Below are positions 28,423-46,087 of a DNA stretch of 59,219 bases, in pieces (position 1 is the first letter of the stretch; each line of letters starts with the position of its first letter). The position numbers and the translations under genes are program-made. Under the pieces are notes generated by a model. It saw only the letters and a program-made list of their open reading frames with translations, made no database searches and was not told the origin of the DNA. The stretch is from Muribaculaceae bacterium. GTDB taxonomy: Bacteria; Bacteroidota; Bacteroidia; Bacteroidales; Muribaculaceae. The stretch lies in NCBI GenBank assembly GCA_022509125.1, contig JAFLTU010000011.1:1-59219 (forward strand), written 5' to 3'.

Positions 28423-29901
28423 TTGCCTGAAGAAAATCTAAAGAAAAAGACCGTAAAAGGCACATTCTGGAGCTCAGTCGAACGCTTCTCCGTTCAAGCT
28501 ATCCAATTCGTTGTCATGATTTTCATGGCACGAATCCTTACTCCGGCCGATTATGGTATCGTCGGAATGTTGGCCGTTTTTCTTGCAGTTTCTCAATCCC
28601 TCATCGACTCAGGGTTTTCCCAGGCTCTTATTCGTAAACAAAACCGCACTCAACTCGACAATTCCACTGTGTTTTATTTCAACATCATTGTTGGGTTGAC
28701 AATGTATTTCACTCTATTCTTTTGTGCGCACCCAATCGCACGGTTTTACGACCAACCCATCCTGATTCCCATAACTCGGATTATGGCAATCTCCCTCCCC
28801 TTGAACTCTCTTGCAGTGGTTCAAAGGGCAATCCTCACTATAAATCTCAATTTCAAGACCCAAGCGGCGGCTTCTCTGGCCTCTGCTGTTGTCACAGGGA
28901 TTGTCGGGCTCTCACTCGCCTATACTGGTTACGGAGTCTGGGCTATTGTTTGGGCTTCATTGGCCGGAACTTTTGTCAACGTTCTGGTTTTATTCTTTAT
29001 AGCCCATTGGCGACCATCCTGGGAATACTCCTGGGATTCCTTTAGAGAGATGTTTCGTTTCGGCTCTAAATTGCTCGCTTCTGGTCTGCTTAACACAGTT
29101 TACGTTAATATCTACCCAATCGTAATCGGTAAGATATTCAAGGCTGCTGACCTGGGTTTTTACACACGGGCTTACAATTTTGCAAACCTTCCATCTTCTA
29201 ACCTCACCGGTATTTTTCAAAGGGTTTCCTTTCCCGTGCTATGCACCATCCAGGATGATGATCAGCGGTTGACGGATGTCTACCGACGTATGCTTCGAGT
29301 TTCCGCCTTCATTATCTTTCCTCTCATGACAGGCCTCGCAGCTGTGGCGGAACCTCTTATCGTTTCCATCCTTACTGATAAATGGTTATATTCCGCTGTC
29401 CTTCTTGTTCCGATTTGTCTCAATTTCATGTGGTATCCCATTCATGCCATAAACCTCAATCTGCTTCAAGTGAAAGGCCGGTCCGATCTTTTCCTTAAAC
29501 TCGAAATATGGAAAAAATTGCTCGGTGTAGCAGTTCTCATAGGAAGCATTCCTCTGGGGTTGTATTGGATGTGTTGGGGAGGGGTTATTAGTTCTCTTAT
29601 CGCCCTTGTAATCAATACTTACTACACAGGTGTTTTAATCCAACTCGGCTTTTTCCGTCAAATGCGCGACCTCTTGCCTACCCTTATCCTGAGCCTCGCG
29701 ATGGGAGTCGGGGTTTGGGCTCTGGTATCCTTCGTACCAATGCCCTCTGGAGGCGCTCTGGCAGCCGGAGTTGGAGCGGGATTAGTCTTTTATATTGGAG
29801 TTGCCAAATTGTTAAGATTCTCTGAATTCTCAGAAGTTTTGTCGCTTATCCCTCAACGAGTTAGAAATAAAATACCTCTCCTTTCTCCCTCCTCTATCTA
29901 A
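28423..29901 (+). CDS. wzx: Polysaccharide/oligosaccharide flippase (Wzx type)
   Basis: A 492-residue membrane protein of the polysaccharide-synthesis/MATE-like superfamily, with about 12-14 hydrophobic segments. The N-terminus KKKTVKGTFWSSVERFS and ARILTPADYGIVGMLAVF are typical of Bacteroidetes Wzx proteins. It flips undecaprenyl-linked repeat units across the inner membrane. The start codon is TTG at 28423; no ATG lies near, and homologous sequence begins at once, so a non-ATG start is accepted. First gene of the locus, behind a long leader. Confidence 0.9.
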   Translation: MPEENLKKKTVKGTFWSSVERFSVQAIQFVVMIFMARILTPADYGIVGMLAVFLAVSQSLIDSGFSQALIRKQNRTQLDNSTVFYFNIIVGLTMYFTLFFCAHPIARFYDQPILIPITRIMAISLPLNSLAVVQRAILTINLNFKTQAAASLASAVVTGIVGLSLAYTGYGVWAIVWASLAGTFVNVLVLFFIAHWRPSWEYSWDSFREMFRFGSKLLASGLLNTVYVNIYPIVIGKIFKAADLGFYTRAYNFANLPSSNLTGIFQRVSFPVLCTIQDDDQRLTDVYRRMLRVSAFIIFPLMTGLAAVAEPLIVSILTDKWLYSAVLLVPICLNFMWYPIHAINLNLLQVKGRSDLFLKLEIWKKLLGVAVLIGSIPLGLYWMCWGGVISSLIALVINTYYTGVLIQLGFFRQMRDLLPTLILSLAMGVGVWALVSFVPMPSGGALAAGVGAGLVFYIGVAKLLRFSEFSEVLSLIPQRVRNKIPLLSPSSI

Positions 29902-29931
29902 TCAAACATTCCTCCTCGCCATATCAAACTT

Positions 29932-31038
29932 ATGGATAAACAGATCACAGTCACCTCTCCTCTCCTTCCCGATCTCGATGAGTTTCATGATCTCCTTAAA
30001 GATATCTGGAAAAGCAAATGGATCACCAATAACGGGTCCTTCCATCGTCAGCTCGAAAAAGAGCTCGCCGATTATCTTAAAGTGCCTTATATATCTCTCT
30101 TCACTAATGGCACTCTCCCCCTTATCACAGCTCTTCAAGCTTTAAGAATCACAGGCGAGGTAATTACAACCCCTTATAGTTTTGTGGCTACCACCCACGC
30201 GCTCTGGTGGAACGGCTGCAAACCCGTCTTCGTAGACGTCGACCCTTCCACTTGCAATCTTGACCCCGCAAAAATAGAAGCCGCCATTACCCCGAAGACT
30301 ACAGCCATTATGCCCGTGCATTGTTACGGAAAACCCTGTGACACTAAAGGGATTCAGGAAGTGGCCGACAAATATGGCCTTAAAGTTATCTACGATGCAG
30401 CCCATGCCTTTGGAGTAGAGGTCAACGGAGAATCTATACTGACTGCAGGGGATATGTCGACCCTTTCTTTCCATGCCACTAAAGTTTATGACACAATCGA
30501 GGGAGGTGCCATGGTGATGCACGACGAAAAAACAAAACAACGCATCGATTATCTTAAGAATTTCGGCTTTGCCGGAGAAATCACGGTTGTTGCACCAGGC
30601 ATCAACTCAAAGATGGATGAAGTCCGCTCTGCCTTCGGCCTTCTAAATCTTCGCCAAGTAGATGATGCCATTGCCCGGCGTCGGGAAGTGGCCGTGAAAT
30701 ACCGTGAGGCGCTTAAAGACCTGCCCGGTGTGACATATTTTGAAGATATGCCCGGAGTGCGTCATAACTACTCATACTTCCCTATATTTATCGACGCAGA
30801 AAAATTCGGTCGCACCCGCGATCAACTTTACGAAGATATGAAAGCTAACAATATACTCGGTCGCCGTTATTTTTATCCCCTCATATCCGAATTCTCCACT
30901 TATCGCAACCTTCCCTCTGCCGGTAAAGAAAACCTACCGATTGCCAACCGCCTCGCTGATACAGTACTCTGCCTCCCCATGCACCACGAACTCTCCCCTT
31001 CCGACATCGATCGAGTCGTCTCAGTTATTCTCCCCTGA
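29932..31038 (+). CDS. DegT/DnrJ/EryC1/StrS sugar aminotransferase (VioA-like)
   Basis: A 368-residue PLP enzyme. Asp155 (YDAAHAFG) and the PLP lysine Lys184 in SFHATKVYDTIEGGAM are clear. The SFHATK form of the lysine motif is that of nucleotide-4-keto-6-deoxyhexose C4 aminotransferases such as VioA, which form dTDP-Qui4N. It probably makes the amino sugar to which an acyl or amino-acid group is then joined. A 30-nt gap follows wzx. No dTDP-glucose synthesis genes (rmlA, rmlB) are in the window, so the substrate would come from elsewhere. Confidence 0.88.
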   Translation: MDKQITVTSPLLPDLDEFHDLLKDIWKSKWITNNGSFHRQLEKELADYLKVPYISLFTNGTLPLITALQALRITGEVITTPYSFVATTHALWWNGCKPVFVDVDPSTCNLDPAKIEAAITPKTTAIMPVHCYGKPCDTKGIQEVADKYGLKVIYDAAHAFGVEVNGESILTAGDMSTLSFHATKVYDTIEGGAMVMHDEKTKQRIDYLKNFGFAGEITVVAPGINSKMDEVRSAFGLLNLRQVDDAIARRREVAVKYREALKDLPGVTYFEDMPGVRHNYSYFPIFIDAEKFGRTRDQLYEDMKANNILGRRYFYPLISEFSTYRNLPSAGKENLPIANRLADTVLCLPMHHELSPSDIDRVVSVILP

Positions 31039-31097
31039 ACTTCACAAATTTCATTTCAATTTTCAACTCTCCTCTCCCTTCCCAAAAATCTAAATCA

Positions 31098-32318
31098 ATG
31101 AAAAAGGCTATTGTCCTCGCCGGCGGTTTTGATCAAATTGCCCTAATCAAGGAATTACAAAGCCGGGGATACTATTGCATCCTTATCGACTATTTCCAGT
31201 CTCCTCCGGCAAAAAACGTAGCCGACCAACACATTATCGGAAGCACTCTTGACGAAGAATTCGTAAAAAAAATTGCATCTCAAGAAAAGGCCGATCTTAT
31301 TGTCACAGCATGCACAGACCAGGCCCTCTTGACTATGGCTAAAGTCTCTCAACAATTGGGTCTCCCCTCATATATTGATTATTCCACTGCTCTAAATGTC
31401 ACAAATAAGTCATATATGAAAGATATTTTGCTCAACCATCAAATTCCTACAGCAAAATATCTCCATATTTCAAATGAAGAAGACATCGATAAAATATCAG
31501 ATTTGGAGTTTCCTCTCATCGTTAAACCCGCCGACTGCAACAGTTCAAAAGGTGTTAAAAAAGTAGACTTTGCGGAAGAATTGCTCCCCGAGATCAGAAA
31601 CGCATTGAAGTTGAGCCGCTCCCATACTGCAATTGTAGAAGAATTCAAGCAAGGAAGAGAACTCTCCGCCGATCTATTTATTGAAAATGGCGTGGCAAAA
31701 CTCCTCTCCGTTACTCAGTCAAATAAAATCCCCCATAATAATGGAGCGTTCACTATTATGCAAAGCCAATATCCTGTATCGGATGATAATCTCAACGAAA
31801 AAATCACCCTGATCGGTCAACAAATTGCTTCAGCATTCAACCTTAAAAACACCCCTCTTTTAATTCAATTGATACATTCCGATCCCGAACTTTATGTCAT
31901 TGAATTTAGTGCTAGAATGGGTGGTGGAACAAAATATGAATTGATCAAACAAATTTCAGGGGTCGATATAATGAAAGAATACGTCAACCTGGTTTTGGGA
32001 GATAGAGTGAAAATAGAGCCTGTGCTTTCCAAAAAGTATATTAATCTTAATTATCTTTATTGCCGACCGGGCACCCTGGCCAGTTTCGCCAACTTTGAGG
32101 AAAACAGAAATAACGCCACCATTGAAGACTTCTTCCTGTATAAAACTCCCGGAATGACATTCGACAAAGTCGAAAATAGTGGTGACCGCGCCGCCGGTGT
32201 TTTGCTTATCGCTGATTCCTCAGAAGAATTAGAGCGCAAGACAAAAGATTACGACAATTCCCTGAAGGTCCTTGACCCCTCAGGAAACGACCTCCTGATT
32301 CATAATCTAATACAATAA
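31098..32318 (+). CDS. ATP-grasp ligase (amino-acid or carboxylate-amine type)
   Basis: A 406-residue protein with ATP-grasp architecture: N-terminal Rossmann-like domain (AIVLAGGFDQIALI), a central domain with FPLIVKPADCNSSKGV (residues about 136-151) for ATP binding, VEEFKQGRELSADLF, and the metal-binding FSARMGGGTKYEL near residue 275. Such enzymes activate a carboxylate as acyl phosphate and join it to an amine or thiol. Placed between the aminotransferase and an opine-dehydrogenase-like gene (1 nt before the latter), it most likely forms the amide between a modified amino acid and an amino sugar or second amino acid. The substrate is unknown. Confidence 0.87.
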   Translation: MKKAIVLAGGFDQIALIKELQSRGYYCILIDYFQSPPAKNVADQHIIGSTLDEEFVKKIASQEKADLIVTACTDQALLTMAKVSQQLGLPSYIDYSTALNVTNKSYMKDILLNHQIPTAKYLHISNEEDIDKISDLEFPLIVKPADCNSSKGVKKVDFAEELLPEIRNALKLSRSHTAIVEEFKQGRELSADLFIENGVAKLLSVTQSNKIPHNNGAFTIMQSQYPVSDDNLNEKITLIGQQIASAFNLKNTPLLIQLIHSDPELYVIEFSARMGGGTKYELIKQISGVDIMKEYVNLVLGDRVKIEPVLSKKYINLNYLYCRPGTLASFANFEENRNNATIEDFFLYKTPGMTFDKVENSGDRAAGVLLIADSSEELERKTKDYDNSLKVLDPSGNDLLIHNLIQ

Positions 32319-32319
32319 A

Positions 32320-33345
32320 ATGAACTTCGCTGTTATTGGTGCAGGAAATGGAGGACAAGCTATGGCAGCCCATCTCTCTATGATGGGCCATTCTGTCGCT
32401 CTTTTCGATAGAAATCCTGATAAACTGAAAAACCTGAGCGAAATCACTCTTTCGGGCAGAATAAATTCCACTGTAAAAATCCATAAAGTCACCGACTCAA
32501 TACCCCGGGCCATTGAGAATGCCGATGTGATTATGGTTACAACCGTTGCAACCGCTCATGCCGATGTGGCAAGGCAGATGGCCCCATTCCTCAAAGAAAA
32601 TCAAATAGTTATCTTAAATCCGGGCCGAACCGGTGGAGTATGGGAATTTAGAAATGTGCTCGATAAGCTCAATTTCTCTAAAAAAATTTACCTTGCGGAA
32701 GCTCAGACTCTTTTATATGCCTGCCGTATTATTCAAGACGGAAGTGTTAATATAATCGGCATAAAAGATTCTGTCCTTTTAGCCGCAGAATCGCAGGCCG
32801 ACACAGATCATGTTCTTTCTATAATTACCCCTGTTTTCCCAGCGTTTAAAAAAGCCCAAAGCCTGTTTCAGACAGGATTGGAAAACATCGGTTGCATCTT
32901 CCATCCCTGCGTGGTTTTATGCAATGCCGCAGCAATTGAAAGAGGAGAAAGATTTTATTTCTATAGGGATATGACGCCTCAAATTGCCGACTTTATACAA
33001 AAAGTTGATAAAGAAAGAATTGATGTCGGAAATGCCTATGGAATAAAATTGCAAAGTGCCACGGATTGGATCTCCTCTGCTTATGACGGCGTCAAAGGCG
33101 AAACCCTTTGTGAGAGAATGAGAAATAATCCCGCCTACTATGATATAATAGCCCCGGCTTCTATCTACACCCGACAGATGTTTGAAGACATTCCCACAGG
33201 ATTGGTGCCAATTAGCCAGCTGGGTAAATTGAAAGGGGTTAATACTCCCCTCATGGATTCGATTATTGACATTTCAGGAGCTCTCCTTAATCAGGATTTC
33301 AGAAAAACCGGCCGAAAAATTTCTAATTGCAATATCCCCAGCTGA
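32320..33345 (+). CDS. NAD(P)-dependent octopine/opine dehydrogenase family protein
   Basis: A 341-residue protein. The Rossmann motif VIGAGNGGQAMAAHL begins at residue 5, and the second domain holds NIGCIFHPCVVLCN, matching the N..HP..LLN block with the catalytic His of opine dehydrogenases. The family reductively joins the amino group of an amino acid to a 2-oxo acid, giving N-(carboxyalkyl) amino acids. Such opines (for example alanopine, carboxyethyl-lysine) are known O-antigen constituents. It is separated by 1 nt from the ATP-grasp gene, and its stop overlaps the next ATG (TGATG), so the three genes are tightly coupled. Confidence 0.87.
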   Translation: MNFAVIGAGNGGQAMAAHLSMMGHSVALFDRNPDKLKNLSEITLSGRINSTVKIHKVTDSIPRAIENADVIMVTTVATAHADVARQMAPFLKENQIVILNPGRTGGVWEFRNVLDKLNFSKKIYLAEAQTLLYACRIIQDGSVNIIGIKDSVLLAAESQADTDHVLSIITPVFPAFKKAQSLFQTGLENIGCIFHPCVVLCNAAAIERGERFYFYRDMTPQIADFIQKVDKERIDVGNAYGIKLQSATDWISSAYDGVKGETLCERMRNNPAYYDIIAPASIYTRQMFEDIPTGLVPISQLGKLKGVNTPLMDSIIDISGALLNQDFRKTGRKISNCNIPS

Positions 33346-35210
33346 TGTATCTCCCTTTGAATGAAAATGAGGTCTTTGGCCTCATAAAACCTATTAACGA
33401 TGTTCACACTTTAGGGATTTCAATGATCTCTAATTTGCTGAAAGCTTCCGGTTTTAAAGTTCTGATTGCTCCCAAAGAAATTCAAGAGGCTGTTAGAAAT
33501 ATTGCGAAAGTCAACAATCTATCAAGAGTCCAACGTTGGATTAAAGATAACAAAATCACCAGATTGGGGTTCAGCTATAGGCTTGATCCAGTCGATGGCG
33601 TCGATTTCTTTATGCGGTTGATTCATCAATTGGCCTCTCTGAAACTCCTCCCCGAAGACAACGGACCCCTACGAGGTATTTTTTTCGCTGGTCTTCCTGA
33701 TGCTTGCGATATCATTCAGAAGAAGCTCCACGGCTCCGTGGTATGTTTCCCAGGCGACGAGACTCCTTTTCAATCTCTCTCTAAACTTCTTGTAGATCCA
33801 AAGTTTTTCCCAAAAGATATCAAAGAGTCTCATGAATACGACGACATGCGGTGGCAATTTGCTTCAACTTACGTCGAAAGTGAAAAATATCTTAAAGTTA
33901 CCCCTCCTAATCACTCCGGTTATCCCTCTTTTGGTAAAGATGATGACTCAGTGGCCAAACGCCTCGAATTTGCTAAAAGCAATCATTCCCTTCCCCTCAC
34001 AAGAGTTCATGCCGGGCCTTATTCTTCCGATCGGCTCGAAGCTATAAATCTTTTCATTTCATGGACTAAGGATTTAGCCAAAGGAGGTTTCCTCGACATC
34101 CTCTCCATTGGTTCCTCCCAGCTTTCTCAATCTAAATTTGGAGAAAATTGGGACGGTCTTTCAAACGGTGGCGGAGTTCCTGTAAACTCAGAAATTGAAT
34201 ACCATCTTATAAAGGAAGCTGCCAAACCAATGTTGGTTCGCACCTATGCAGGCACAAAAAATATTAAAGACCTTGCAGCTATGTATGAGCGTGCTTTAAA
34301 CATTTCTTGGCACGCCCTCTCCTTCTGGTGGTTCTGCGAAATAGATGGTCGAGGCGACAATTCTTTGCTCGAAAATCTTACTGAACATTTCGACACAATA
34401 AGATTTATCGCGTCAACCGGCAAACCTCTCGAACCTAATGTGCCTCATCATTTTGCGTTTCGTGGCGCTGATGATGCCACCTTCGTTATCTCTGGCTTTC
34501 TTTGTGCAAAAGCTGCCAAAATCTTAGGAATAAAAGATTTGATTCTGCAGATGATGCTGAATACTCCCAAATACACCTGGGGCATTCAGGATCTCGCGAA
34601 AGCCCGCGTTTTATTAAAACTAACTAAATCCTTAGAAGACGAAAACTTCCATGTCCATCTGCAAACCCGTGCCGGGCTCGACTACTTCTCTCCCGACATC
34701 GAAAAAGCCAAAATTCAACTCGCCGCTGTCACTGCTTTAATGGACGATATAGAACCCGAAAATCCCGACAGCCCTGAAATAATTCATGTGGTCAGCTATT
34801 CGGAAGCCGTTAGACTCGCAGATCCCGATATTATGGAAGAAAGCTTGAAAATCACTCTCGGAGCTTTAAAGGAATATCGAAATTTAAAGAAACAAAACAA
34901 GCTAAGTATTCATGATTTCGACAAAGACATAAACCTCCACTACGAAGATCTTCTTCAGGAATGTAAAGAGGCCATTGATTTCCTTGAGCAAAAGTTCCCA
35001 GACCTATATACTCCTCAAGGCTTCTACCGCCTATTTGAGCAAGGATACTTCCCTCTTCCCTTCTTGCTCGATGAGAAAAATAAATTCCCATTTGTCACTC
35101 AACAATCCACCACTCTTCGCAATGGAGGTATTAAAGTAATAAAAAATGGGAAAATTATTCCCACAAAAGAGCGTTACGAGCAAATCTTCAACGCCACCTA
35201 TTTCCAATAA
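33345..35210 (+). CDS. Cobalamin-binding mutase-like protein (glutamate-mutase type, fused)
   Basis: A 621-residue protein. The frame reaches back to a TTG at 33327, but ATG 33345 overlaps the previous stop and is preferred. The N-terminal domain (about 8-150) shows the B12-binding signature: NDVHTLG with DxHxxG at residues 19-24, a later SYRL (77-80) for SxL, and FFAGLPDA near the expected glycine-rich turn. The central part (about 210-430) looks like the barrel of glutamate/methylaspartate mutases, with GGGVPVNSEIEY and a strand ending LVRTY (Arg299). There is no Cys motif for radical SAM. Such enzymes rearrange carbon skeletons using adenosylcobalamin. I infer supply of a branched amino acid; the exact reaction is unknown. 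Confidence 0.68.
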   Translation: MYLPLNENEVFGLIKPINDVHTLGISMISNLLKASGFKVLIAPKEIQEAVRNIAKVNNLSRVQRWIKDNKITRLGFSYRLDPVDGVDFFMRLIHQLASLKLLPEDNGPLRGIFFAGLPDACDIIQKKLHGSVVCFPGDETPFQSLSKLLVDPKFFPKDIKESHEYDDMRWQFASTYVESEKYLKVTPPNHSGYPSFGKDDDSVAKRLEFAKSNHSLPLTRVHAGPYSSDRLEAINLFISWTKDLAKGGFLDILSIGSSQLSQSKFGENWDGLSNGGGVPVNSEIEYHLIKEAAKPMLVRTYAGTKNIKDLAAMYERALNISWHALSFWWFCEIDGRGDNSLLENLTEHFDTIRFIASTGKPLEPNVPHHFAFRGADDATFVISGFLCAKAAKILGIKDLILQMMLNTPKYTWGIQDLAKARVLLKLTKSLEDENFHVHLQTRAGLDYFSPDIEKAKIQLAAVTALMDDIEPENPDSPEIIHVVSYSEAVRLADPDIMEESLKITLGALKEYRNLKKQNKLSIHDFDKDINLHYEDLLQECKEAIDFLEQKFPDLYTPQGFYRLFEQGYFPLPFLLDEKNKFPFVTQQSTTLRNGGIKVIKNGKIIPTKERYEQIFNATYFQ

Positions 35211-35473: not shown

Positions 35474-37030
35474 GTGCGTTATCCCATAGGTCGACAAGAT
35501 TTCCAAACCCTGCGCGAAGATGGATGCGTCTACATAGACAAAACTCGCCTTGTCTATGAATTGGTGCAAAATCCTTATGTCTTCCTCTCTCGACCTCGCC
35601 GGTTCGGGAAATCACTCCTCCTATCCACGATTAAAGCCTACTTCGAAGGGAAAAAAGAGCTCTTTGAAGGTCTCGAAATAGAACGCCTCGAAAAGGATTG
35701 GGCCCCACATCCCGTCTTCCTCATCTCGCTTGCAAGGGTGATGGACAATTCTAATCAATCTCTCAGAGATCTTCTCAACCAACAATTCTTTTTATGGGAA
35801 AAAGATCTCGGGATCAACAATCAGAATCCGGATTTCGGTTCCAGGTTTTCCTCCATCCTTCAAGAATCTTTCCGACAATCCGGTAAAAGAGCAGTGGTAT
35901 TGATAGATGAATACGACAATCCGCTGATCAATTCTCTCTCGGATTCTAAAATCCACGAAGCCAATCTCTCCCTCCTCAAATCAATCTATACAAACCTTAA
36001 AGACCTCGATGCTTATATTCGTTTTGGGATGCTTACCGGTGTCTCCCGATTTTCCAAAATGTCTATCTTCAGCGGTCTAAACAATCTAACCGACGTTTCC
36101 TTCGACCCAAAATTTGCTGCAATCTGCGGGATAACAGAAAACGAACTCCTGAACGATCTTTCCCATGGCATCGAAAACCTTGCAAAACACCTCAATTCCT
36201 CCCCTCAGGAGGCATTCTATGTCTTAAAAAAACACTACGACGGCTACCATTTCACCTTTCCTTCCCCTGATATCTATAACCCTTTCAGCCTCCTAAGCGC
36301 TCTCGATGCCCTAAACATTAGTGATTACTGGTTTGCTACCGCCACTCCCACATTTCTAATTCAAAGGCTGTACGAATCTAACGTCGACATTCCCTCTCTT
36401 CTTAACCCGGAGGCTCCCTCTGCGGCTCTCTCGTCCTCCGACGCTAACCATGATTCCCCCGTTGCCCTCCTTTTCCAGACAGGATATCTCACGATTAAAG
36501 ACTTCGATTCCGAATGGGAGCTTTACCGGCTCGGGGTTCCTAACCTTGAGGTGAAAAAAGGCCTGATGTTTGACATGGCCAAAATCTTCCAGAAAAAAGA
36601 CGAGGCTCAGAGCCTGAAACTCATCAAGCAATTAACCCTGGCATTAAGGCAAGGGGAACCGGAAATTTTCTTGACTTCTCTCCAAAGTTATCTTGCCTCT
36701 ATCCCGGCGAATATCACCCAAAACAAATCAGAATTATATTTTGAAAATAATATATATATAATTTTATCCCTTTTGGGGATTTACATACAAACCGAAACAG
36801 TGATTTCAAAAGGGAGAATAGACATTGTCATTCAATCAGATAAATACGTCTATGTCATAGAATTGAAACTCGATAAGACACCCGAAGAGGCTCTGCGCCA
36901 AATCAATGAAAAGGAATATGCCCTCCCATTCCTTCATTCAGGCAAACAAGTTTTCAATATCGGCATAAACTTCTCCTCCGAAATCCGAAACATTTCCTCT
37001 TGGCTAATCCAACCCTCCAAACCTTCTTAA
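35474..37030 (+). CDS. AAA-ATPase-like / PD-(D/E)XK nuclease family protein
   Basis: A 518-residue protein starting at GTG. The N-terminus (YPIGRQDFQTLREDGCVYID) is the hallmark of the large AAA-ATPase_like/PDDEXK_9 family of Bacteroidetes. Walker A RRFGKS has Lys46, a Walker B-like VVLIDEYDNPL lies near residue 140, and the C-terminal domain (about 440-518) has GRIDIV and VIELKLDK, the PD-(D/E)XK nuclease core. The family is usually present in many copies per genome, and its function is unproven (possible mobile or defence role). It splits the polysaccharide locus and stands just behind the palindromic repeats. Confidence 0.9.
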   Translation: MRYPIGRQDFQTLREDGCVYIDKTRLVYELVQNPYVFLSRPRRFGKSLLLSTIKAYFEGKKELFEGLEIERLEKDWAPHPVFLISLARVMDNSNQSLRDLLNQQFFLWEKDLGINNQNPDFGSRFSSILQESFRQSGKRAVVLIDEYDNPLINSLSDSKIHEANLSLLKSIYTNLKDLDAYIRFGMLTGVSRFSKMSIFSGLNNLTDVSFDPKFAAICGITENELLNDLSHGIENLAKHLNSSPQEAFYVLKKHYDGYHFTFPSPDIYNPFSLLSALDALNISDYWFATATPTFLIQRLYESNVDIPSLLNPEAPSAALSSSDANHDSPVALLFQTGYLTIKDFDSEWELYRLGVPNLEVKKGLMFDMAKIFQKKDEAQSLKLIKQLTLALRQGEPEIFLTSLQSYLASIPANITQNKSELYFENNIYIILSLLGIYIQTETVISKGRIDIVIQSDKYVYVIELKLDKTPEEALRQINEKEYALPFLHSGKQVFNIGINFSSEIRNISSWLIQPSKPS

Positions 37031-37047: not shown

Positions 37048-38061
37048 ATGATTTCCTTGGAGGTACTTTCTCAAATTCAACATATCAAGGAGCGTTGCGC
37101 TGAAATCAAACCACTCGTGGCTATAAAATGTATCACTTATAACCAGGAACTTTATCTCCGTGATGCGCTCGAAGGATTCGTAATGCAAAAAACAGACTTT
37201 CCTTTCGTCGCCTTAGTTCACGATGACGCATCCACAGATACCACTACCAAAATCCTAAAAGAATATGCAGAAAAATATCCAAATATAATTTTTCCCATTT
37301 ACGAAACCGAGAACCAACATTCTAAACATGACGGTTCCCTCGATAAAATTCTTTTTTCAGCATTAGAAGCTACGAAAGCAAAATACATAGCCCTATGCGA
37401 AGGCGATGACTACTGGATCGACCCTCTCAAACTCCAAAAGCAAGTCTCCTTCCTTCAATCTCATTCTGAATATGGAATGGTGTATGCAATCGCTAAAAGG
37501 TATTCCCAAGAAAAAAAAGAGTTTATGGAACCAATGGGTAGACCTTATAAGGACATTGAAGAAATGTTGTTAGAGAGTTATCAAGTTCCTACTGCATCCA
37601 TTCTTTATCGAGCTGATATTTATAAAGAAATATATAATAAATATATCAAGGGTAAAAATTGGTTAATGGGAGACTATCCCTTATCCTTAGGATTTATGAC
37701 AATTTCTAAGATTAAATTTATTCCAGAGGAAATGTCGGTTTATCGAATTCTTTCCAACTCAGCCTGCCATTTTACCTCTTTTGATAAGTTAGAAAGATTT
37801 TGTAAATCGTCCTACGAAGTCGAAAAATTTTACGCTTCTTTAAATAAGCTTAATATTTTAAATAAACTTGAAGAAAATTTCAACACCTCATTATATTTTA
37901 AAAGTCTGTCTTATCCAAACAAGGTAATTAGCTACAATTATTATAAAAAAATTAAACCTAAATCACTGAAAGAAAAATGTAAAAGAATTTTATGTTCCTC
38001 ATATTATTCCTACATTGTATTTCAAAAGATTAATAATTTTAGATTAAAATTAATTAAATAG
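37048..38061 (+). CDS. Glycosyltransferase family 2
   Basis: A 337-residue GT-A enzyme. The N-terminal half shows VAIKCITYNQELYL, the nucleotide-binding VHDDASTDTTTK near residue 57 and the DxD-equivalent CEGDDYWIDP near residue 115. The first two thirds has ordinary composition, but from about 37500 onward the sequence becomes markedly AT-rich, with Lys/Asn/Ile-heavy protein. It is probably cytoplasmic and adds one sugar to the lipid-linked repeat unit. Follows the AAA/PD-(D/E)XK gene by 17 nt. Confidence 0.9.
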   Translation: MISLEVLSQIQHIKERCAEIKPLVAIKCITYNQELYLRDALEGFVMQKTDFPFVALVHDDASTDTTTKILKEYAEKYPNIIFPIYETENQHSKHDGSLDKILFSALEATKAKYIALCEGDDYWIDPLKLQKQVSFLQSHSEYGMVYAIAKRYSQEKKEFMEPMGRPYKDIEEMLLESYQVPTASILYRADIYKEIYNKYIKGKNWLMGDYPLSLGFMTISKIKFIPEEMSVYRILSNSACHFTSFDKLERFCKSSYEVEKFYASLNKLNILNKLEENFNTSLYFKSLSYPNKVISYNYYKKIKPKSLKEKCKRILCSSYYSYIVFQKINNFRLKLIK

Positions 38062-38076
38062 AGACAATTAATAGAC

Positions 38077-38688
38077 ATGTTTCTTTTATCGTTATTAAAA
38101 AAATTCTACTGGAAAAAAAAATTAAAATTCTTTAGACAATTTTATAAAATTGGTGAAGGGACAATAATTCAACCGACCTTTAATATGAATTTAGTTGATC
38201 CCGTTAAAAACCATACATATCTGGAAACCGGGAAAAATTGTTTATTGGCCGGCAATTACGTATTCGAATCTCAAGGAGGCAAAATTGAGATTGGGGATAA
38301 CTGTTATATAGGAAATAGCTCTTTTATCTCAGTATCTGAAATTATAATTGGAAATAATGTGACAATAGCATGGGGATGCACAATATATAATCATAATTCT
38401 CACTCTTTAGATTATCTTGATCGTAGAAAAGATCTTATTGATCAAAGAAATGATTATTTTAATAAAAAACCTTTAACTCGAAGTAAAGATTGGTCTAAAG
38501 TTATAACAAAACCCATCATTATAGAGGACGACGTTTGGATCGGCTTTAATTGTATAATCTTAAAAGGCGTTAAAATTGGCGAAGGGGCCATTGTAGCAGC
38601 CGGATCGGTTGTAACTAAAGATGTTCAGCCATGGACTATGGTTGGAGGAAATCCGGCTAAGTTAATCAAACATATCAAAAATTCATGA
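38077..38688 (+). CDS. Hexapeptide-repeat O-acyltransferase
   Basis: A 203-residue left-handed beta-helix protein. Hexapeptide turns occur around [20 protein letters not shown] and again in [32 protein letters not shown], with the catalytic His in NHNSHS near residue 109. It resembles maltose/WbbJ-type acetyltransferases that O- or N-acetylate sugars of surface polysaccharides. Its stop overlaps the next start (ATGA), so translation is coupled. AT-rich. Confidence 0.9.
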
Positions 38689-39830
38689 AAATCCTATTTG
38701 ATTTAATTTCTCTACAAGGAGCTCATAATGGAGGGGAGGAATATACCCGTGCTGTCTTATTAGAATTAATTCAAAGGCACTCCGACATTGTTGGCATATA
38801 TGACTCTAAAATTCAATTTCTTGATAATGATTATGATTATTTTAAAGGACTTTTCCCAATTTTTGATATCAATATTACAAAAATAGAAGAGATTATAAAT
38901 AGTCAAAACATTGATTTCTTTTTTATAGGTATTGGACAAAGATTCATGAATTATGATTTAAAAAATATAAATTGTAAAACTATATGTGTTATTCACGATA
39001 TATGTTATTTAGAAATAGTATCTAATAAGATTATTACCCTTTATCCTCAAATTCAACAAAAACCTAATTTTGAACTAAAATTGAGAAGAGCCTTTAGGGC
39101 CCTTTTCCCTAGGAAACCCAATAATGATATCAAAGAACAATTTAACAATTTAATCAATTTCATCTCTCAAGAAAATGTAAAAATTATTACTGTTTCCAAT
39201 TACTCTAAAAATGCACTGAAATATTATTTCCCAAAACTTAAAGACAAAGAAATAACCGTTTTATATCCACCTGTAATTCGAGTTGAAGTAGATAAAAATC
39301 ATAATCACGCAGAATTTAAAAAATATCTAAAAAAGATTTCGCCCTACTTTCTTTTGCTTAATGCAAATAAACCTAATAAAAATCCTTCTTTCGTCTTTGA
39401 TGTTTTTAAAAATTCTCCGGATTTAACGCAAAATTTTAATTTACTTGCAACTAATTGTCCTCCAGATATTGTAGCGCCATATATTATTCATTCTCCTTAT
39501 CTTTCAGATGAAGAAATGGAATTAGCTTATCAAAATGCCTATGCTCTTCTGTATCCCTCATATGGAGAAGGATTCGGCTATCCTCCTGTTAGGGCAATGA
39601 AATATGGGGTTCCCGTTGTTTGTGCCAATGTCACCTCAATTCCGGAAGTAGTGGGTGATGGTGGACTTTTGTTTTCACCATTTTATCAAAGTGATCTTTC
39701 TGAAAAAATTCATATTCTAATAAAGTCATATAACTATTATTCCGATTTAAGTTTAAAAAGGTTTCCTTTAATTAATAAGAAACAAATTGACGACTTCCAT
39801 AAATTAATTGAACTTATCGTTAATACCTGA
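38685..39830 (+). CDS. Glycosyltransferase family 4 (GT-B)
   Basis: A 381-residue GT-B enzyme. The C-terminal nucleotide-sugar domain has the family block with [41 protein letters not shown] split across residues about 285-325, including the conserved Glu of the EGFG motif. The N-terminal domain ([12 protein letters not shown]) is the acceptor side. Very AT-rich coding. It overlaps the acyltransferase by 4 nt. Confidence 0.9.
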
Positions 39831-39834
39831 AAAA

Positions 39835-40707
39835 GTGATAAAATTACTAGTCATAGTTGTTACTTACAACGGAATGAAATGGATTGAGAAATGCCTCTCC
39901 AGTGTTTTCAACTCATCAATACCTAATAAAGTTATTGTGATTGATAACGGATCCACTGATGGCACAATCAATTTTTTGGAAGCTCTCGGAAAGAAAATAA
40001 TTTTTTATAAGACAGATCAAAATCTTGGTTTTGGTAAAGCAAACAATATTGGGCTTAAATATGCAATAGATAATAATTATGATTATGTCTATCTTCTAAA
40101 TCAGGACGCTTGGGTTTTTCCAGACACTTTTGAAATTTTAATTAAAGAATTATCAACTAATCCAGAGCTTGCTCTTATTAGTCCACTTCAACTTACAGCT
40201 TCTTTAAATTCCTTAGATAAGAATTTTTTACAATTGGCCTGCCCATTGGAAATATTGTCAGATGCCCTTTGTGCGCATATTAAACCTTTTTATCATTCTA
40301 ATTTCATAATGGCGGCTCACTGGCTTTTAAAAACCGAAATTATAAAACAGATAGGGGGGTTCTCACCTGCCTTCCCACATTATGGGGAGGATGATAATTA
40401 TATTCAAAGACTTTTCTTTAATAATTATAAAATAGGAATATCTACTGAAGCTAGAGCGATTCATGATAGAGAAGAAAGAATCCGGTCAAAAGCATTTGAA
40501 TACTATTATAATTATATCTACTCTATTATATTAATTGAAAATCCTTTACTAAAACATAGATTTTTAAAATCATTAAAACATTATATTAAAATCATAATTT
40601 TTCACTTTTCTATTCCTAACTTTAAATACTTTATGAAATTCTTTTGCAATCTTTTTTATTACAAAAAAATATTTAAACAGAGCTTACAAAAAAAAGCTTT
40701 TCTATAA
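39835..40707 (+). CDS. Glycosyltransferase family 2 (rhamnosyltransferase-like)
   Basis: About 290 residues. The frame opens with TTG at 39808 inside the previous gene, but GTG 39835 lies 4 nt after the previous stop and begins VIKLLVIVVTYNG, the usual GT2 start. Motifs: VIDNGSTDGT, NLGFGKANNIG, LLNQDAWVFPD and PHYGEDDNY, which resemble rhamnosyltransferases of the WbbL/RfbF type. The C-terminus is Lys/Phe-rich. AT-rich DNA. Confidence 0.86.
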   Translation: MIKLLVIVVTYNGMKWIEKCLSSVFNSSIPNKVIVIDNGSTDGTINFLEALGKKIIFYKTDQNLGFGKANNIGLKYAIDNNYDYVYLLNQDAWVFPDTFEILIKELSTNPELALISPLQLTASLNSLDKNFLQLACPLEILSDALCAHIKPFYHSNFIMAAHWLLKTEIIKQIGGFSPAFPHYGEDDNYIQRLFFNNYKIGISTEARAIHDREERIRSKAFEYYYNYIYSIILIENPLLKHRFLKSLKHYIKIIIFHFSIPNFKYFMKFFCNLFYYKKIFKQSLQKKAFL

Positions 40708-40893
40708 TTAAAGAGAAAACACCAATTTTTCTTAATTTACCCTTAATATAACTATAATTTCTAAACATTTTTTAATCAGCGTTTCAATATACAGTAATAT
40801 TTTATTGTTATAAACCAAGAATATTGAAGAATAAAATTGATAAAAGTTAGTCTAATTGTTTATAACACTTATTCTTCTATAATATTTATTTTG

Positions 40894-41955
40894 ATGGAAT
40901 CAGAAAAGGTTAGCATAATTGTTCCTCTTTTTAATGCTGAAGTCTACCTAAAAGCATTCATTGATAGTGTCATTAATCAAACTTACAAAAACTGGGAATT
41001 AATTATTGTTGATGATGGTTCAACTGATAAAGGACCTGATTTAGTAAAAAAATACGAAGCTGTCGACAAGAGAATTAAATACATAAAAAGGGATTTATCT
41101 CGCAAAAAAGGGGGAAACACATGTAGAAATATAGGGTTTGAAAACGCTCAAGGGAAATTTATTATTTGGTTTGATGCTGATGATATTGTGGCTCCCTACG
41201 CACTCGAACAAAGAGTTAAATTCATGGAGAGAAACCCTAATTTGGATTTTGCTGTTTTTCCGGCTCTCGGTTTCAACGATAAATTACGAAATTGGAATTG
41301 GTTCTATTTCGGATATAATTCTGAAAATAAAGCATTAAACAATCTTATAAACAAATATATACCCTTTGCGGTCTGGACAAATATTTATAATAAAGATTCT
41401 TTAATCAAAAAAAAGATTCAATGGGATGAGAACTTAATTTCTCTACAAGATAGTGATTTTAATATTACATGTTTAACTAGTGGTTTATCCTTTAAAGAAT
41501 GTAAAGCTCCCGCTGATTATTTTTGGAGAAATACTGAAGGATCAGTAACACAAAAAATATTTAGTGAAAAACATTGTTTAAACCATATTTATTTATTAAA
41601 TAAATTATCTTCTAATAATTTAATAATAAACAAATATAAACATGATTTAAAATTTGCTACTTTATGGACAATTAACATACTATCTAATAATTCTCCTGAT
41701 TGGAAAAAATATTTGAATACCATTAAATTATTTAATAAAAATACTTATTTTACTAAAAAAGTATCTTTATTATTTTCAAATAAAATTAATATTAATAGTA
41801 AGAAAGGTATTATAAAAGCATTTTCACTCTTTCCAAAAACAATTCTTAAAACACGTAAAAACCAAGGTAACTTTCCTTTTCACAATGCACACAATCAAAA
41901 TCGAGATGAATTAATTAATATTACTGAAAGAATGTTATCCCAATATAACCTGTAA
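40894..41955 (+). CDS. Glycosyltransferase family 2
   Basis: About 353 residues from ATG 40894 (MESEKVSIIVPLFNAE); the upstream extension to 40837 has no support. Motifs: VDDGSTDKGPDLV near residue 40 and WFDADDIVAPYAL near 92, typical of GT2 with a DxD-type motif. The C-terminal third is extremely rich in Asn, Lys and Ile. A 186-nt AT-rich gap precedes it, larger than others in the cluster; it may hide an internal promoter, but none fits the consensus. Confidence 0.87.
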   Translation: MESEKVSIIVPLFNAEVYLKAFIDSVINQTYKNWELIIVDDGSTDKGPDLVKKYEAVDKRIKYIKRDLSRKKGGNTCRNIGFENAQGKFIIWFDADDIVAPYALEQRVKFMERNPNLDFAVFPALGFNDKLRNWNWFYFGYNSENKALNNLINKYIPFAVWTNIYNKDSLIKKKIQWDENLISLQDSDFNITCLTSGLSFKECKAPADYFWRNTEGSVTQKIFSEKHCLNHIYLLNKLSSNNLIINKYKHDLKFATLWTINILSNNSPDWKKYLNTIKLFNKNTYFTKKVSLLFSNKININSKKGIIKAFSLFPKTILKTRKNQGNFPFHNAHNQNRDELINITERMLSQYNL

Positions 41956-42069
41956 TTATATTACCAAAGGTTATCCCATCATTTCCTAATATCCTGTTTT
42001 AAACAAACTTGTAACATTATACACTTCTATTGTTATAACTTTATATTTTTTAAAGGGTTTAAAATTTTA

Positions 42070-42708
42070 ATGAAATCAATAATTAAAAGATATCTATTTA
42101 AAATCCTTCCAATATATAATAGATTTTTTGGAAGGAATATTATTCCTCTTAAATATAGATTATTCGGGAGAAAAAAATTAGGTCATGGTAATTTTCTAGA
42201 TATTCAATCCAATGTAATATTAAAAAATTGTAATATAAAAATTATAGGTCAAAATTGTAAGTTATTTATTGGTGATGGATGTAAGCTGATAGGAGCTAAA
42301 TTTTTGATAATGGGTAATGATTCTAAAATCATTATTAATTCAGGGACTACTATAAATGCTTCAAATACTCAACCCACTGTAATAAATGCCATCGAAGGGA
42401 AATCTATCGTTATAGGAAAAGACTGTATGTTATCTAATAATATAGAGATACATAATTCTGATTACCACACTATTCTTAATTCGGAATCTTTACGTATCAA
42501 TGATGCCGAAGATATTGTCGTTGGAAACCATGTGTGGATTGGATTTAGGTCTATTTTATTAAAAGGTACAAAAGTTGGAGACAATACCATTATTGCTTCC
42601 AATACTTTGGTGAATAAAAATTTTGAAAAAGAAGAAAATGTATTAATTGCAGGAATTCCAGGTAGAGTGGTTAGAAAAAATATAAATTGGTGTCGCCAAT
42701 TAATTTAG
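42070..42708 (+). CDS. Hexapeptide-repeat acyltransferase
   Basis: A 212-residue left-handed beta-helix protein with hexapeptide repeats (IIGQNCKLFIGDGCKLIG and IVVGNHVWIGFRSILLKGTKVGDNTIIAS) and a histidine in EIHNSDYHT that fits the catalytic His. The ending VLIAGIPGRVVRKNI is typical of sugar O-acetyltransferases. A second acyltransferase in the locus suggests two acylated positions, or a variable modification. Separated by 114 nt from the gene before. AT-rich. Confidence 0.88.
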   Translation: MKSIIKRYLFKILPIYNRFFGRNIIPLKYRLFGRKKLGHGNFLDIQSNVILKNCNIKIIGQNCKLFIGDGCKLIGAKFLIMGNDSKIIINSGTTINASNTQPTVINAIEGKSIVIGKDCMLSNNIEIHNSDYHTILNSESLRINDAEDIVVGNHVWIGFRSILLKGTKVGDNTIIASNTLVNKNFEKEENVLIAGIPGRVVRKNINWCRQLI

Positions 42709-42754
42709 CAACTTTAATTCTTCTATCTTATAAACCCTGCAAAATAATAAAAAA

Positions 42755-43837
42755 ATGTCTAAACCCAAAGTCATAGCATTCTATCTTCCTCAATATCATC
42801 CCACTCCTGACAACGATCGATGGTGGGGCAAAGGATTCACTGAATGGACCAACGTAGGGAAAGCCAAACCCCTCTTCCGTGGGCACTACCAACCAAAAGT
42901 CCCGGCCGACTTGGGTTATTACGACCTACGTCTTCCTGAAGTTAGGGATGCCCAGGCTGAACTCGCACGCGAAGCAGGCATCTACGGTTTTTGCTACTAC
43001 CACTATTGGTTCGGAAAAGGCAAGGAAGAACTCGAGCTCCCATTCAACGAAGTGCTCCGTCTTGGCAAACCAGATTTCCCTTTCATGCTATGCTGGGCCA
43101 ACGAATCCTGGCATAAAAAATTCTGGGATAAAGATGGAGTCGGCTCCTCCAAACAAGTGTTGGTGGAGCAAACCTATCCCGGAGAACAAGACCATATAGA
43201 TCATTTCTATCGCCTTCTTCCGGCCTTCAAAGATCCTCGTTATATCAGCATCGATGGCAAACTCGCTTTTATGATATATAAACCCCTTGAATTCCCCGAA
43301 GTTGATAAATTCATCTCACTTTGGAATTCATTAGCTGAAAAAGAAGGCCTAACTAGTTTCTATTTCATAGGATTCTCTTTCGACCCCGATTCGGAGGGGA
43401 AGAAAATTTTAGATGTAGGTTTCGACGCTGTTAATTCATGTAGACTTAATCGAAATAGCATAAGAAATCTCGGATGGGCCTTCAGAAAAGCCTTAAGTCT
43501 ATTGCTGAAAAGACCCCGCACCACAAAATATAAAAAATATTTCCCGAAATTCATTACCCTAAAAGAAAAAACTGACTCTCAATATATTCCTACAATTATT
43601 CCCAATTGGGATCACACTCCACGAAGCGGGTATAATGGTGACCTAATTACAGACTGCGAACCCAAATATTTTAAAGACCATTGTGAGGAGGTGATTGAGG
43701 CTATCAAAATCAAGAATCCCGATATAGCTTTTCTGAAATCTTGGAATGAATGGGGTGAAGGAAATTATATGGAACCTGACTTTAAATATGGGAAAGGTTA
43801 TATAAAAGCTCTTCGTGAAGTTCTAGAAAAACTTTAA
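42755..43837 (+). CDS. WbsX-like glycosyltransferase (GH99-like fold)
   Basis: A 360-residue protein. The opening KVIAFYLPQYHPTPDNDRWWG, then GFTEWTNVGKAKPLFRGHYQP, the YGFCYYHYWFGKG segment and the C-terminal SWNEWGEGNYMEP are the family signature of WbsX proteins, found in O-antigen and rhamnan-type loci and often fused to glycosyltransferases. The first half uses more GC-rich codons, like the housekeeping genes here, and stands out among AT-rich neighbours. Role: probably transfer or processing of a glycan within the repeat unit; the reaction is unproven. Confidence 0.88.
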   Translation: MSKPKVIAFYLPQYHPTPDNDRWWGKGFTEWTNVGKAKPLFRGHYQPKVPADLGYYDLRLPEVRDAQAELAREAGIYGFCYYHYWFGKGKEELELPFNEVLRLGKPDFPFMLCWANESWHKKFWDKDGVGSSKQVLVEQTYPGEQDHIDHFYRLLPAFKDPRYISIDGKLAFMIYKPLEFPEVDKFISLWNSLAEKEGLTSFYFIGFSFDPDSEGKKILDVGFDAVNSCRLNRNSIRNLGWAFRKALSLLLKRPRTTKYKKYFPKFITLKEKTDSQYIPTIIPNWDHTPRSGYNGDLITDCEPKYFKDHCEEVIEAIKIKNPDIAFLKSWNEWGEGNYMEPDFKYGKGYIKALREVLEKL

Positions 43838-43866
43838 TTGAAATTTCACAGTCATCAGATTCTTTT

Positions 43867-44994
43867 ATGTATTGGCTGGTCTTACTAATTTTATTAATCT
43901 TTTTATCAATTGAAATTAAATATAAACATATATTTAATTTTTCTTTTTATTTCGCTTATATTTTAATTTCTCTTCTTTTAATTCTTAGAAAAGGACAAGG
44001 CACAGACTTTTATAATTACAAAGAATTATTCGATGGTATTTCACAAGCCCCAAATTTTCTGTATGCTTTTATTGTTGGACATGGTGAAATTGGTTTTATA
44101 TTTTTCAATTATATTTTTATAAAATTAGGTTTATCTTTTGAGGCATTTATGATGTGTTTCTCTTTGGTAACCATGATATGTTATTTCCCTTTTTTCAAAA
44201 AACAATGCAACAAGAGTATAATACCTTTATTTATTTTCTTTAGTACTTTTTTTCTGATTTATGCTTTCAGTGCAATTCGGCAAGGACTCGCCATGGCAAT
44301 TGTACTTAGTTATCTTTTTCCTTTAGCAAAAGAAAAATATAGCCTTAAATTCTTTGTTGTTCTTTTAATCGCTGTAATGTTTCATACTTCTGCAATTATT
44401 TGCATTTTTTTACCTTTTGTATATAAAATAAGATATTCAAAAACAATCATTGGAATATTGATTGTAGTTTTTGCAGGAGTGTCAGTTTTAAGAATCAATT
44501 TTCTAAATTATCTACCTTTTATTAATCTATTTTACAAAGGTGAAACAGCGGGCTCTAATTCTATTTTCGCGTTATTTATACGTATCATAGCTTTATTACC
44601 TATCTTCCTAGTTAATAAAAGTGCTTACTTGAAAAATGATGAATTAAACGGAGTGAAAAATATTTTAGTCATGGGGTTCATTATTTATGCATTACTCAGT
44701 TTTAATGATCTTGTTTCAAGTAGAATAAATGTTTATTATAGAATGTTTGAAGGAATTTTCGTATATCTCCTTATATATAAATCTAATCTAAAAATAATTC
44801 CAAAACAAATAGCCGTTTACTATGCCTCAATTTGTATTGTTCTCTTTTATTTCAATATTATTGGCTTTTTAGATCAAGGAAAATATAAAAACTGTAATGT
44901 CTGGACATATCCTTATCTCTCGGTTTTTGATTCTGATAAAGAAATAAGATATTTCCGTTCAGACTTTGGGGCAAACCAACCCTCAACACGTTAA
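43867..44994 (+). CDS. wzy: EpsG-family polysaccharide polymerase (Wzy type)
   Basis: A 375-residue membrane protein with roughly ten hydrophobic segments. The motif RKGQGTDFYNYKELF (41-55) after the second helix and FSAIRQGLAMAIVLSYLF (134-151) identify the EpsG group of Wzy-like polymerases. It joins lipid-linked repeat units in the periplasm and pairs with the Wzx flippase at the start of the locus. AT-rich. Followed by a glycosyltransferase gene after 16 nt. Confidence 0.87.
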   Translation: MYWLVLLILLIFLSIEIKYKHIFNFSFYFAYILISLLLILRKGQGTDFYNYKELFDGISQAPNFLYAFIVGHGEIGFIFFNYIFIKLGLSFEAFMMCFSLVTMICYFPFFKKQCNKSIIPLFIFFSTFFLIYAFSAIRQGLAMAIVLSYLFPLAKEKYSLKFFVVLLIAVMFHTSAIICIFLPFVYKIRYSKTIIGILIVVFAGVSVLRINFLNYLPFINLFYKGETAGSNSIFALFIRIIALLPIFLVNKSAYLKNDELNGVKNILVMGFIIYALLSFNDLVSSRINVYYRMFEGIFVYLLIYKSNLKIIPKQIAVYYASICIVLFYFNIIGFLDQGKYKNCNVWTYPYLSVFDSDKEIRYFRSDFGANQPSTR

Positions 44995-45010
44995 GAAATT
45001 ATTGTAATAA

Positions 45011-46087
45011 ATGAGTGAAAAAAATATTATTGTTAATGCGACAGCTCTGCGTTCAGGAGGAGCTCTTTCCATCCTTAAACAATTCCTGGATAAAATCCCA
45101 CAAAATGATTATCATTGGGTTGTTTTCGTCAGCCCTGATGTTATCAATACCGAAAAGCTTAAAACAAATGTTAAAATCGAAGAAATTTTCGGTGTAACAT
45201 CTCTTCACAAAAGACTGTGGTGGGACTCAATCGGTTTAAAAAAATGGTTAAAGAATCACAATGTCCGACCAATCGCAACTATATCATTACAAAACACTGG
45301 ATTCAGAACTAATGTAAAAAATGTTCCAAATTTTATATACTATCATCAACCTTCTCCTTTTTATCCCTATTCTTGGAATCCTATAAGTAAATCAGAAAGG
45401 CATTTATGGTTTTACAAAAACATTTATCCTTTATTTGTTAAGCTTTTTCTAAAAAAGAATACTCAAATTCTTGTCCAATTAGATTTTATAAAGAAAGGCT
45501 TTCAAAAAAGATTTAATCATAATATAAATAATATTCATGTTTTCTCCCCTTCTTTTATAATCCCTCAAACAAACTCTTCACTCAATCTCTCTGATAAAAA
45601 TATTAATCTTTTTTATCCTTCTTCCAAGGTATTTTATAAAAATCATAATGTATTATTTAATGCATTACCCAAAGTTTCAAAACCCATCAAAGTTTATTTT
45701 ACTATTGACAATAACAATTTTTTAAATACAAGTCAAGATATAATTTTTTTGGGTTCTCAATCTTATGATAATGTATGCAAATATTACTATGCTTGTGATG
45801 CGGTTTTATTCCCGAGTTATATGGAAACTTTCGGTCTGCCTCTTCTCGAAGCAGCCTCATTAGGACTTCCTATCATTGCCGCCGATCTTCCTTATGCAAG
45901 AGAAGTTCTCAGAGGATATGAAGGTGTCACTTTTATTCCTCACGATGATCCTGAACTTTGGGCCAAGGCTATCAATAATCTGCAAAAAGACAAAAAATTC
46001 AAACCTTTTAATATAGAAAATCGTCCCGGTTGGACGGAATTATTTAACTTTGTATTTTCCAAAATTGAACACAATGTCAATATTTAA
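45011..46087 (+). CDS. Glycosyltransferase family 4 (GT-B)
   Basis: A 358-residue GT-B enzyme. The N-terminal domain has NATALRSGGALSILKQFL and the C-terminal domain VLFPSYMETFGLPLLEAASLGLP, with the Glu-containing motif (ETFG) and the DLPYAREVL block that binds the nucleotide sugar. Its 3' end overlaps the next gene by 14 nt. Composition is AT-rich in the middle, but the last 250 nt are less so, near the junction with the sugar-nucleotide genes. Confidence 0.9.
   Translation: MSEKNIIVNATALRSGGALSILKQFLDKIPQNDYHWVVFVSPDVINTEKLKTNVKIEEIFGVTSLHKRLWWDSIGLKKWLKNHNVRPIATISLQNTGFRTNVKNVPNFIYYHQPSPFYPYSWNPISKSERHLWFYKNIYPLFVKLFLKKNTQILVQLDFIKKGFQKRFNHNINNIHVFSPSFIIPQTNSSLNLSDKNINLFYPSSKVFYKNHNVLFNALPKVSKPIKVYFTIDNNNFLNTSQDIIFLGSQSYDNVCKYYYACDAVLFPSYMETFGLPLLEAASLGLPIIAADLPYAREVLRGYEGVTFIPHDDPELWAKAINNLQKDKKFKPFNIENRPGWTELFNFVFSKIEHNVNI

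Follow-up and report, generated by a model that had tools for sequence, protein, structure and literature searches.

Here we report that a predicted adenosylcobalamin-dependent mutase (MUT) and an opine dehydrogenase (OPDH) form, by linkage, the conserved core of a five-gene cassette in a polysaccharide locus of a Muribaculaceae bacterium, and that this core is wider than its use in sugars. The cassette lies on contig JAFLTU010000011.1 (GenBank assembly GCA_022509125.1), of which the whole analysed stretch of 59,219 nucleotides is called the window. On balance, we favour an explanation in which the mutase rearranges an amino acid, OPDH forms an opine and an ATP-grasp ligase couples this opine to a 4-amino sugar through an amide bond, the pair serving elsewhere to make a compatible solute. 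The cassette contains the following features:

28423..29901, + strand, flippase (Polysacc_synt_3; PF13440, E 1.3e-100)
29932..31038, + strand, DegT-family sugar aminotransferase (AT), predicted to be of the C4 type (4-amino-4,6-dideoxy sugar; PF01041, E 3.1e-100)
31098..32318, + strand, ATP-grasp ligase with an L-amino-acid-ligase C-terminal domain (PF13535, PF18603)
32320..33345, + strand, OPDH (PF02317, E 1.8e-39)
33345..35210, + strand, MUT, a B12-binding domain fused to a glutamate-mutase-like barrel, predicted adenosylcobalamin-dependent mutase
33399..33416, + strand, DxHxxG cobalamin motif DVHTLG (MUT residues 25-30 counted from 33327)

An initial annotation, made from the letters of the window, had described these five genes as lying together with gaps of 30, 59 and 1 nt between flippase, AT, ATP-grasp ligase and OPDH, and all of this was confirmed, as were the families PF13440, PF01041, PF13535 with PF18603, and PF02317. 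The motifs it had named are present in the translations (SFHATK in AT, GAGNGG and FHP in OPDH, DVHTLG in MUT). Its gap of -1 nt before MUT holds with the ATG at 33345. The open reading frame (ORF) listing starts MUT at TTG 33327, giving a 19-nt overlap with OPDH; the ATG, with a 1-nt overlap, is the best start because the first residues of the homologues align there.

Linkage of MUT and OPDH in relatives

Scanning of genome contigs confirmed 203 stretches containing relatives, of which the best 80 were kept as loci (L numbers), and the sample therefore leans towards near relatives. OPDH is found in 77 of the 80, always on the strand of MUT, lying ≤500 nt away in 70 and ≤3 kb away in 77. Moreover, the distances of MUT and OPDH are correlated (r 0.836 over 70 loci, ten having been dropped that gave no clean pair of frames), the highest value among 999 permutations being 0.155. 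The same linkage is seen for a second mutase subfamily, MUT2: in loci L102-L106 OPDH adjoins MUT2 or is one gene off in 5/5, and across MUT and MUT2 clostridial loci it is linked in 20/21, the exception being L142, where the mutase runs to the contig end. Tandem OPDH genes occur 5′ of MUT in L015 and L035 (7835-8860 and 8922-9947).

The initial annotation had asked whether the whole set recurs. The contiguous order AT, ATP-grasp, OPDH, MUT does so in 12 of the 80 loci, with the flippase directly 5′ of AT in 4 of these 12; one is Heminiphilus faecis (L018, on the same contig as L110), a member of the window's family. The flippase is thus an accessory outside the conserved core. The proposal had also tied the unit to a sugar aminotransferase, and named as decisive against it genomes where the genes occur apart from one. 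Taken to the letter, such genomes were found, since 57 of the 80 loci have no aminotransferase of the window's kind at ≥250 bits, some of the contigs being short. In many phyla the pair is present and the sugar genes are not, and AT and the ATP-grasp ligase are therefore additions in polysaccharide loci. MUT2 seems to have entered such loci independently: in L104, OPDH-MUT2 has an ATP-grasp gene beside it, along with Wzy and Wzx-like genes.

There are at least 2891 MUT and at least 7998 MUT2-type matches. Among drawn genomes, MUT or MUT2 was present in 10/393 from the window's order and 4/296 from its phylum (its own genome being counted in both), in 5/247 from the phylum of L040 and in 22/391 from the class of L074 (6 MUT, 16 MUT2). 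The plasmid collection yielded no relative.

Predicted fold and family of MUT

At E≤0.001 MUT matched nothing in Pfam or NCBIfam, PDB sequence searches stayed at chance level with either MUT or its alignment as query, and a profile comparison with the glutamate-mutase alignment was not significant. The sequence routes to a mutase family having failed, a predicted structure was needed. The predicted model has the architecture of a B12 mutase, as the initial annotation had suspected: a B12-binding domain with DxHxxG, in which H27 and G30 are invariant and D25 is conserved in ≥90% of 37 sequences, and a mutase-type barrel. With a DxHxxG domain and such a barrel, the modelled protein is a predicted member of the B12-dependent radical mutase superfamily. 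An adenosyltransferase gene 3′ of MUT in L061 bears only indirectly on the use of adenosylcobalamin.

A corrinoid-dependent methyltransferase, by which the opine would be methylated instead of rearranged, is a highly improbable alternative. The B12 domain of the predicted structure also resembles MetH and MttC, the matches of the barrel include dihydropteroate-synthase-type barrels, and some databases name MUT2 'methionine synthase'. This source name, carried by the MUT2 proteins P0249, P0262, P0280 and P0296, is likely a misnaming.

Within the mutases, MUT was compared with glutamate mutase (GlmE/GlmS, PF06368 plus PF02310), to which it is 16% identical. Filing it there was rejected, as it has no PF06368 match; six of eight scanned MUT2 members score 18.0-24.3 bits against this model (cut-off 26.6) and the other two give no match. 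The substrate of glutamate mutase is held by an arginine claw (R66, R100, R149), plus E171 and Y177, and E171 contacts the substrate amine, according to the text available of PMC9545868. In a register set by eye, the profile alignment not being significant, Arg226 and Arg305 of MUT would correspond to R66 and R149, and both are invariant in the 37 sequences. By the same register, residues 250-288, the expected place of R100, contain no arginine, so that this member of the claw seems to be missing, and an invariant Ser332 stands at the place of E171. Glutamate, which had been suggested as a substrate to try, is therefore likely not the substrate of MUT as judged from this by-eye register and the lack of a PF06368 match. 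MUT also differs from glutamate mutase in having OPDH as its partner.

These residues also bear on the order of the reactions. OPDH could make the opine first and MUT rearrange it, acting as an opine mutase. The near inseparability of the pair speaks for such an enzyme, and Ser332 together with the missing arginine would suit an N-substituted substrate. However, the residue mapping was made by eye over a non-significant profile alignment and gene order gives no preference over mutase first, and we consider this order unlikely. The equilibrium of glutamate mutase is unfavourable. We prefer the mutase before the dehydrogenase because the NAD(P)H-driven step of OPDH would pull an unfavourable isomerisation.

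Partner enzymes of the cassette

The assignment of OPDH to the opine-dehydrogenase family was borne out. It matches PF02317 with 135.6 bits (cut-off 30) and has a Rossmann domain. Its nearest PDB entry, matched along the whole length, is N-(1-D-carboxylethyl)-L-norvaline dehydrogenase (1bg6, E 1.1e-67). His195 and Asp290 occupy the positions of His202 and Asp297 of that enzyme and are invariant in 25/25 aligned sequences; we take them to be the catalytic pair of opine dehydrogenases. Unlike 1bg6, OPDH is paired with a B12 mutase, and in four loci it carries an N-terminal PTS EIIA type 2 domain (L055:8305-9825, L046, L059 and L071; PF00359 was tested for L055).

AT has the pyridoxal-phosphate lysine within its SFHATK motif, and its best PDB match is 2po3, followed by perosamine synthases. 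It scores 303.5 bits against the NCBIfam DesI equivalog TIGR04427, below the cut-off of 650. The ATP-grasp ligase matches PF13535 (44.7 bits, cut-off 27) and PF18603, LAL_C2 (30.8 bits, cut-off 29.4), and two of its best three PDB matches (4dim, 4wd3 and 3vot) are L-amino acid ligases. With this C-terminal domain and these matches, the ligase is predicted to form the amide, as had been proposed.

Exchange of ligase partners

A window-like ATP-grasp gene lies near MUT in 37 of the 80 loci by ORF search, and in L031 by tblastn, these loci being mostly from Bacteroidales. A D-Ala-ligase-like gene is the partner in nine loci and an Asn-synthase-like gene in eight, of which L008 also has an ATP-grasp gene; a further locus, L108 (same contig as L039), carries an ATP-grasp gene of another kind. 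On a quick tree without bootstrap, the ATP-grasp label changes 7 times, compared with a mean of 28.6 on shuffling, and the window falls in a set of 34 rows (SH-aLRT 99) of which 32 are ATP-grasp-linked.

For the Asn-synthase-like partner, a glutaminase reading was tried on ten proteins outside polysaccharide loci and rejected as not general. The Cys after the first Met is kept in three (L041, L057, L106) and absent in seven (L046, L055, L071, L074, L075, L102, L103), and therefore ammonia transfer from Gln does not fit all ten, nor does a use like that of beta-lactam synthetase. Separately, in L111:9838-13277 OPDH and MUT are followed by D-Ala-ligase-like (58 bits), alanine-racemase-type and B12-radical-SAM genes, a set whose product is perhaps peptide-like.

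Riboswitches and the osmotic signal

Rfam scans were run over 1.03 Mb, comprising the window and 66 loci. The cyclic di-AMP (c-di-AMP) riboswitch RF00379, of a type associated with osmotic stress, was found in four of the 66 loci (98-105 bits), each aptamer lying on the operon strand 66 to 283 nt 5′ of the first ORF. The operons so led are OPDH, Asn-synthase-like gene, MUT (L074); OPDH, MUT2 (L145 and L154); and D-Ala-ligase-like gene, OPDH, MUT2 (L149). In stretches picked by eye 3′ of each aptamer, a hairpin (-12.5 to -15.1 kcal/mol) precedes a T-rich tail. The four loci are not near-copies: identity among the mutases of L145, L149 and L154 is 55-59%, and the L074 mutase shares ~33% with them. 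RF00379 elements over the cut-off number 34 in the 22 mutase-bearing clostridial genomes; they occur in 18 of these genomes, and four lie at the OPDH-mutase operon. Bound c-di-AMP switches expression off, as stated in the available part of a review (PMC5575661).

Moreover, of the 42 loci lacking the ATP-grasp gene, 13 have MscS-type genes ≤4 kb from MUT (14 genes), compared with none of the 38 that carry it, and the far flanks of these two sets, 331 and 364 kb, contain none. A full MscS-like gene is also present in the MUT2 locus L102. Taken together, these data suggest that outside polysaccharides the OPDH-mutase pair, accompanied by a different amide ligase or none and in some loci linked to c-di-AMP riboswitches or MscS-type genes, likely makes a compatible solute, a role unforeseen in the initial annotation.

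Several observations weigh against the explanation that we favour. OPDH is missing from 3/80 loci (L047, a 3.2-kb contig, L058 and L079), and none of the three kinds of ligase was detected in 26/80. The profile comparison and PF06368, as described above, did not connect MUT to glutamate mutase. No c-di-AMP riboswitch was found in 62 of the 66 loci, a search of all 66 and of the window for cobalamin riboswitches gave none at gathering threshold, and in L148 (4280-4341) the element directly 5′ of OPDH-MUT2 (OPDH ATG 4457) is a fluoride riboswitch (RF01734, 50.3 bits). Only three of the 13 MscS-type loci have a full-length gene (L046, L057, L059); the others have a small protein, and for the one member tested the MscS TM-helix model is the sole match; the MscS queries were drawn partly from those same matches. 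A cyclase-family gene lies 3′ of MUT in L033, with a gene of the same cluster in L034. Lastly, many bearers of MUT are, by title, metagenome-assembled genomes from gut or rumen, where salt stress is not obvious.

Some of these points would suit a different role, in which the pair outside polysaccharides serves, for example, to make a metal-binding opine, modify the cell wall or store nitrogen, while the c-di-AMP control and the membrane genes reflect control of the cell envelope. According to the parts available of PMC5575661 and PMC10117811, c-di-AMP riboswitches also precede cell-wall genes; D-Ala-ligase-like partners would fit, as would, in L111, the alanine-racemase-type gene close to OPDH and MUT and, in L148, the fluoride riboswitch. 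However, the MscS-type genes, the EIIA fusion and the c-di-AMP riboswitch point more simply to osmotic control, and we regard the alternative as a real but lesser possibility than a compatible solute.

FMN riboswitches were also seen just 3′ of MUT2 and 5′ of an ECF transporter gene (L146:5796-5909 and L147:7310-7424); riboswitch and transporter are likely a separate unit.

Surroundings of the cassette

Downstream of the cassette, an ordinary polysaccharide locus extends to ~51.7 kb, with glycosyltransferases, hexapeptide transferases, an EpsG-family gene and sugar epimerase or dehydratase genes. An AAA-ATPase_like/PDDEXK_9 gene lies directly 3′ of the cassette on the same strand (35474-37030). 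The glycosyltransferase part (38000-46000) has a G+C content of 26-34%, against 42-46% around the cassette, as if of foreign origin. In the window as a whole, the Rfam scan gave only a tRNA match and no RF00379. An MscS-like channel gene (PF00924; 25035-26564, - strand) lies ~1.9 kb from the flippase; as it is on the opposite strand with two other + strand ORFs between, it was given no weight as osmotic support.

Relation to known systems

Some O-antigens bear opines, namely N-carboxyethyl-lysine and alanopine, and in these the opine is an amide ornament, as in the predicted product of the cassette. We know of no B12 mutase in the pathways of such O-antigens, and no paper on their genes was found in the open PubMed Central literature, to which all of our literature searches refer.

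By its description, the same pair is present in the octopine dehydrogenase/B12-binding protein operon Hore_09740/09750 of Halothermothrix orenii, whose role the 2009 genome paper gives as unknown (PMC2626281). The available part of that account mentions neither a mutase fold nor a riboswitch, and no ligase or connection to polysaccharides; we found no later explanation of the pair in open papers. In Dehalobacter, genes for the osmolyte N-epsilon-acetyl-beta-lysine are under Na+ and c-di-AMP riboswitches (PMC9337991), so that an osmolyte-precursor gene is likewise switched by c-di-AMP; this system differs in its enzymes, and the part of the paper available describes no opine dehydrogenase. Within the literature searched, the new elements are the predicted mutase fold, MUT as a subfamily and its use in polysaccharide loci, the swapping of ligase partners and the links to c-di-AMP and channels.

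Proposed mechanism and implications

We infer the following sequence of steps. Adenosylcobalamin would bind His-on at the N-terminal domain of MUT, where the motif is present, and the barrel would rearrange the carbon skeleton of an amino acid. OPDH would couple the amine with a 2-oxo acid using NAD(P)H. The ligase would then make an amide, in the window with the 4-amino sugar from AT and elsewhere with ammonia or an amine. Going by the gene families, the decorated sugar would enter the polysaccharide and be flipped.

More tentatively, and with rather less confidence than in the explanation of the cassette itself, we hypothesise that many phyla may share, through two mutase subfamilies, a c-di-AMP-switched B12-radical route to a new class of opine-type compatible solutes, and that Bacteroidales may have re-used its product as an amide-linked ornament of amino sugars on the cell surface. 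If so, many anaerobes would have a hidden need of B12 to tolerate salt, and Bacteroidales would likewise need it to build a surface polysaccharide. Opines would be added to the compatible solutes of bacteria, and the Halothermothrix orenii operon, of unknown role in the available part of the 2009 account (PMC2626281), would have a testable answer. Moreover, such a route would offer a testable role for thousands of proteins that are now named 'hypothetical', 'cobalamin-binding' or 'methionine synthase'.
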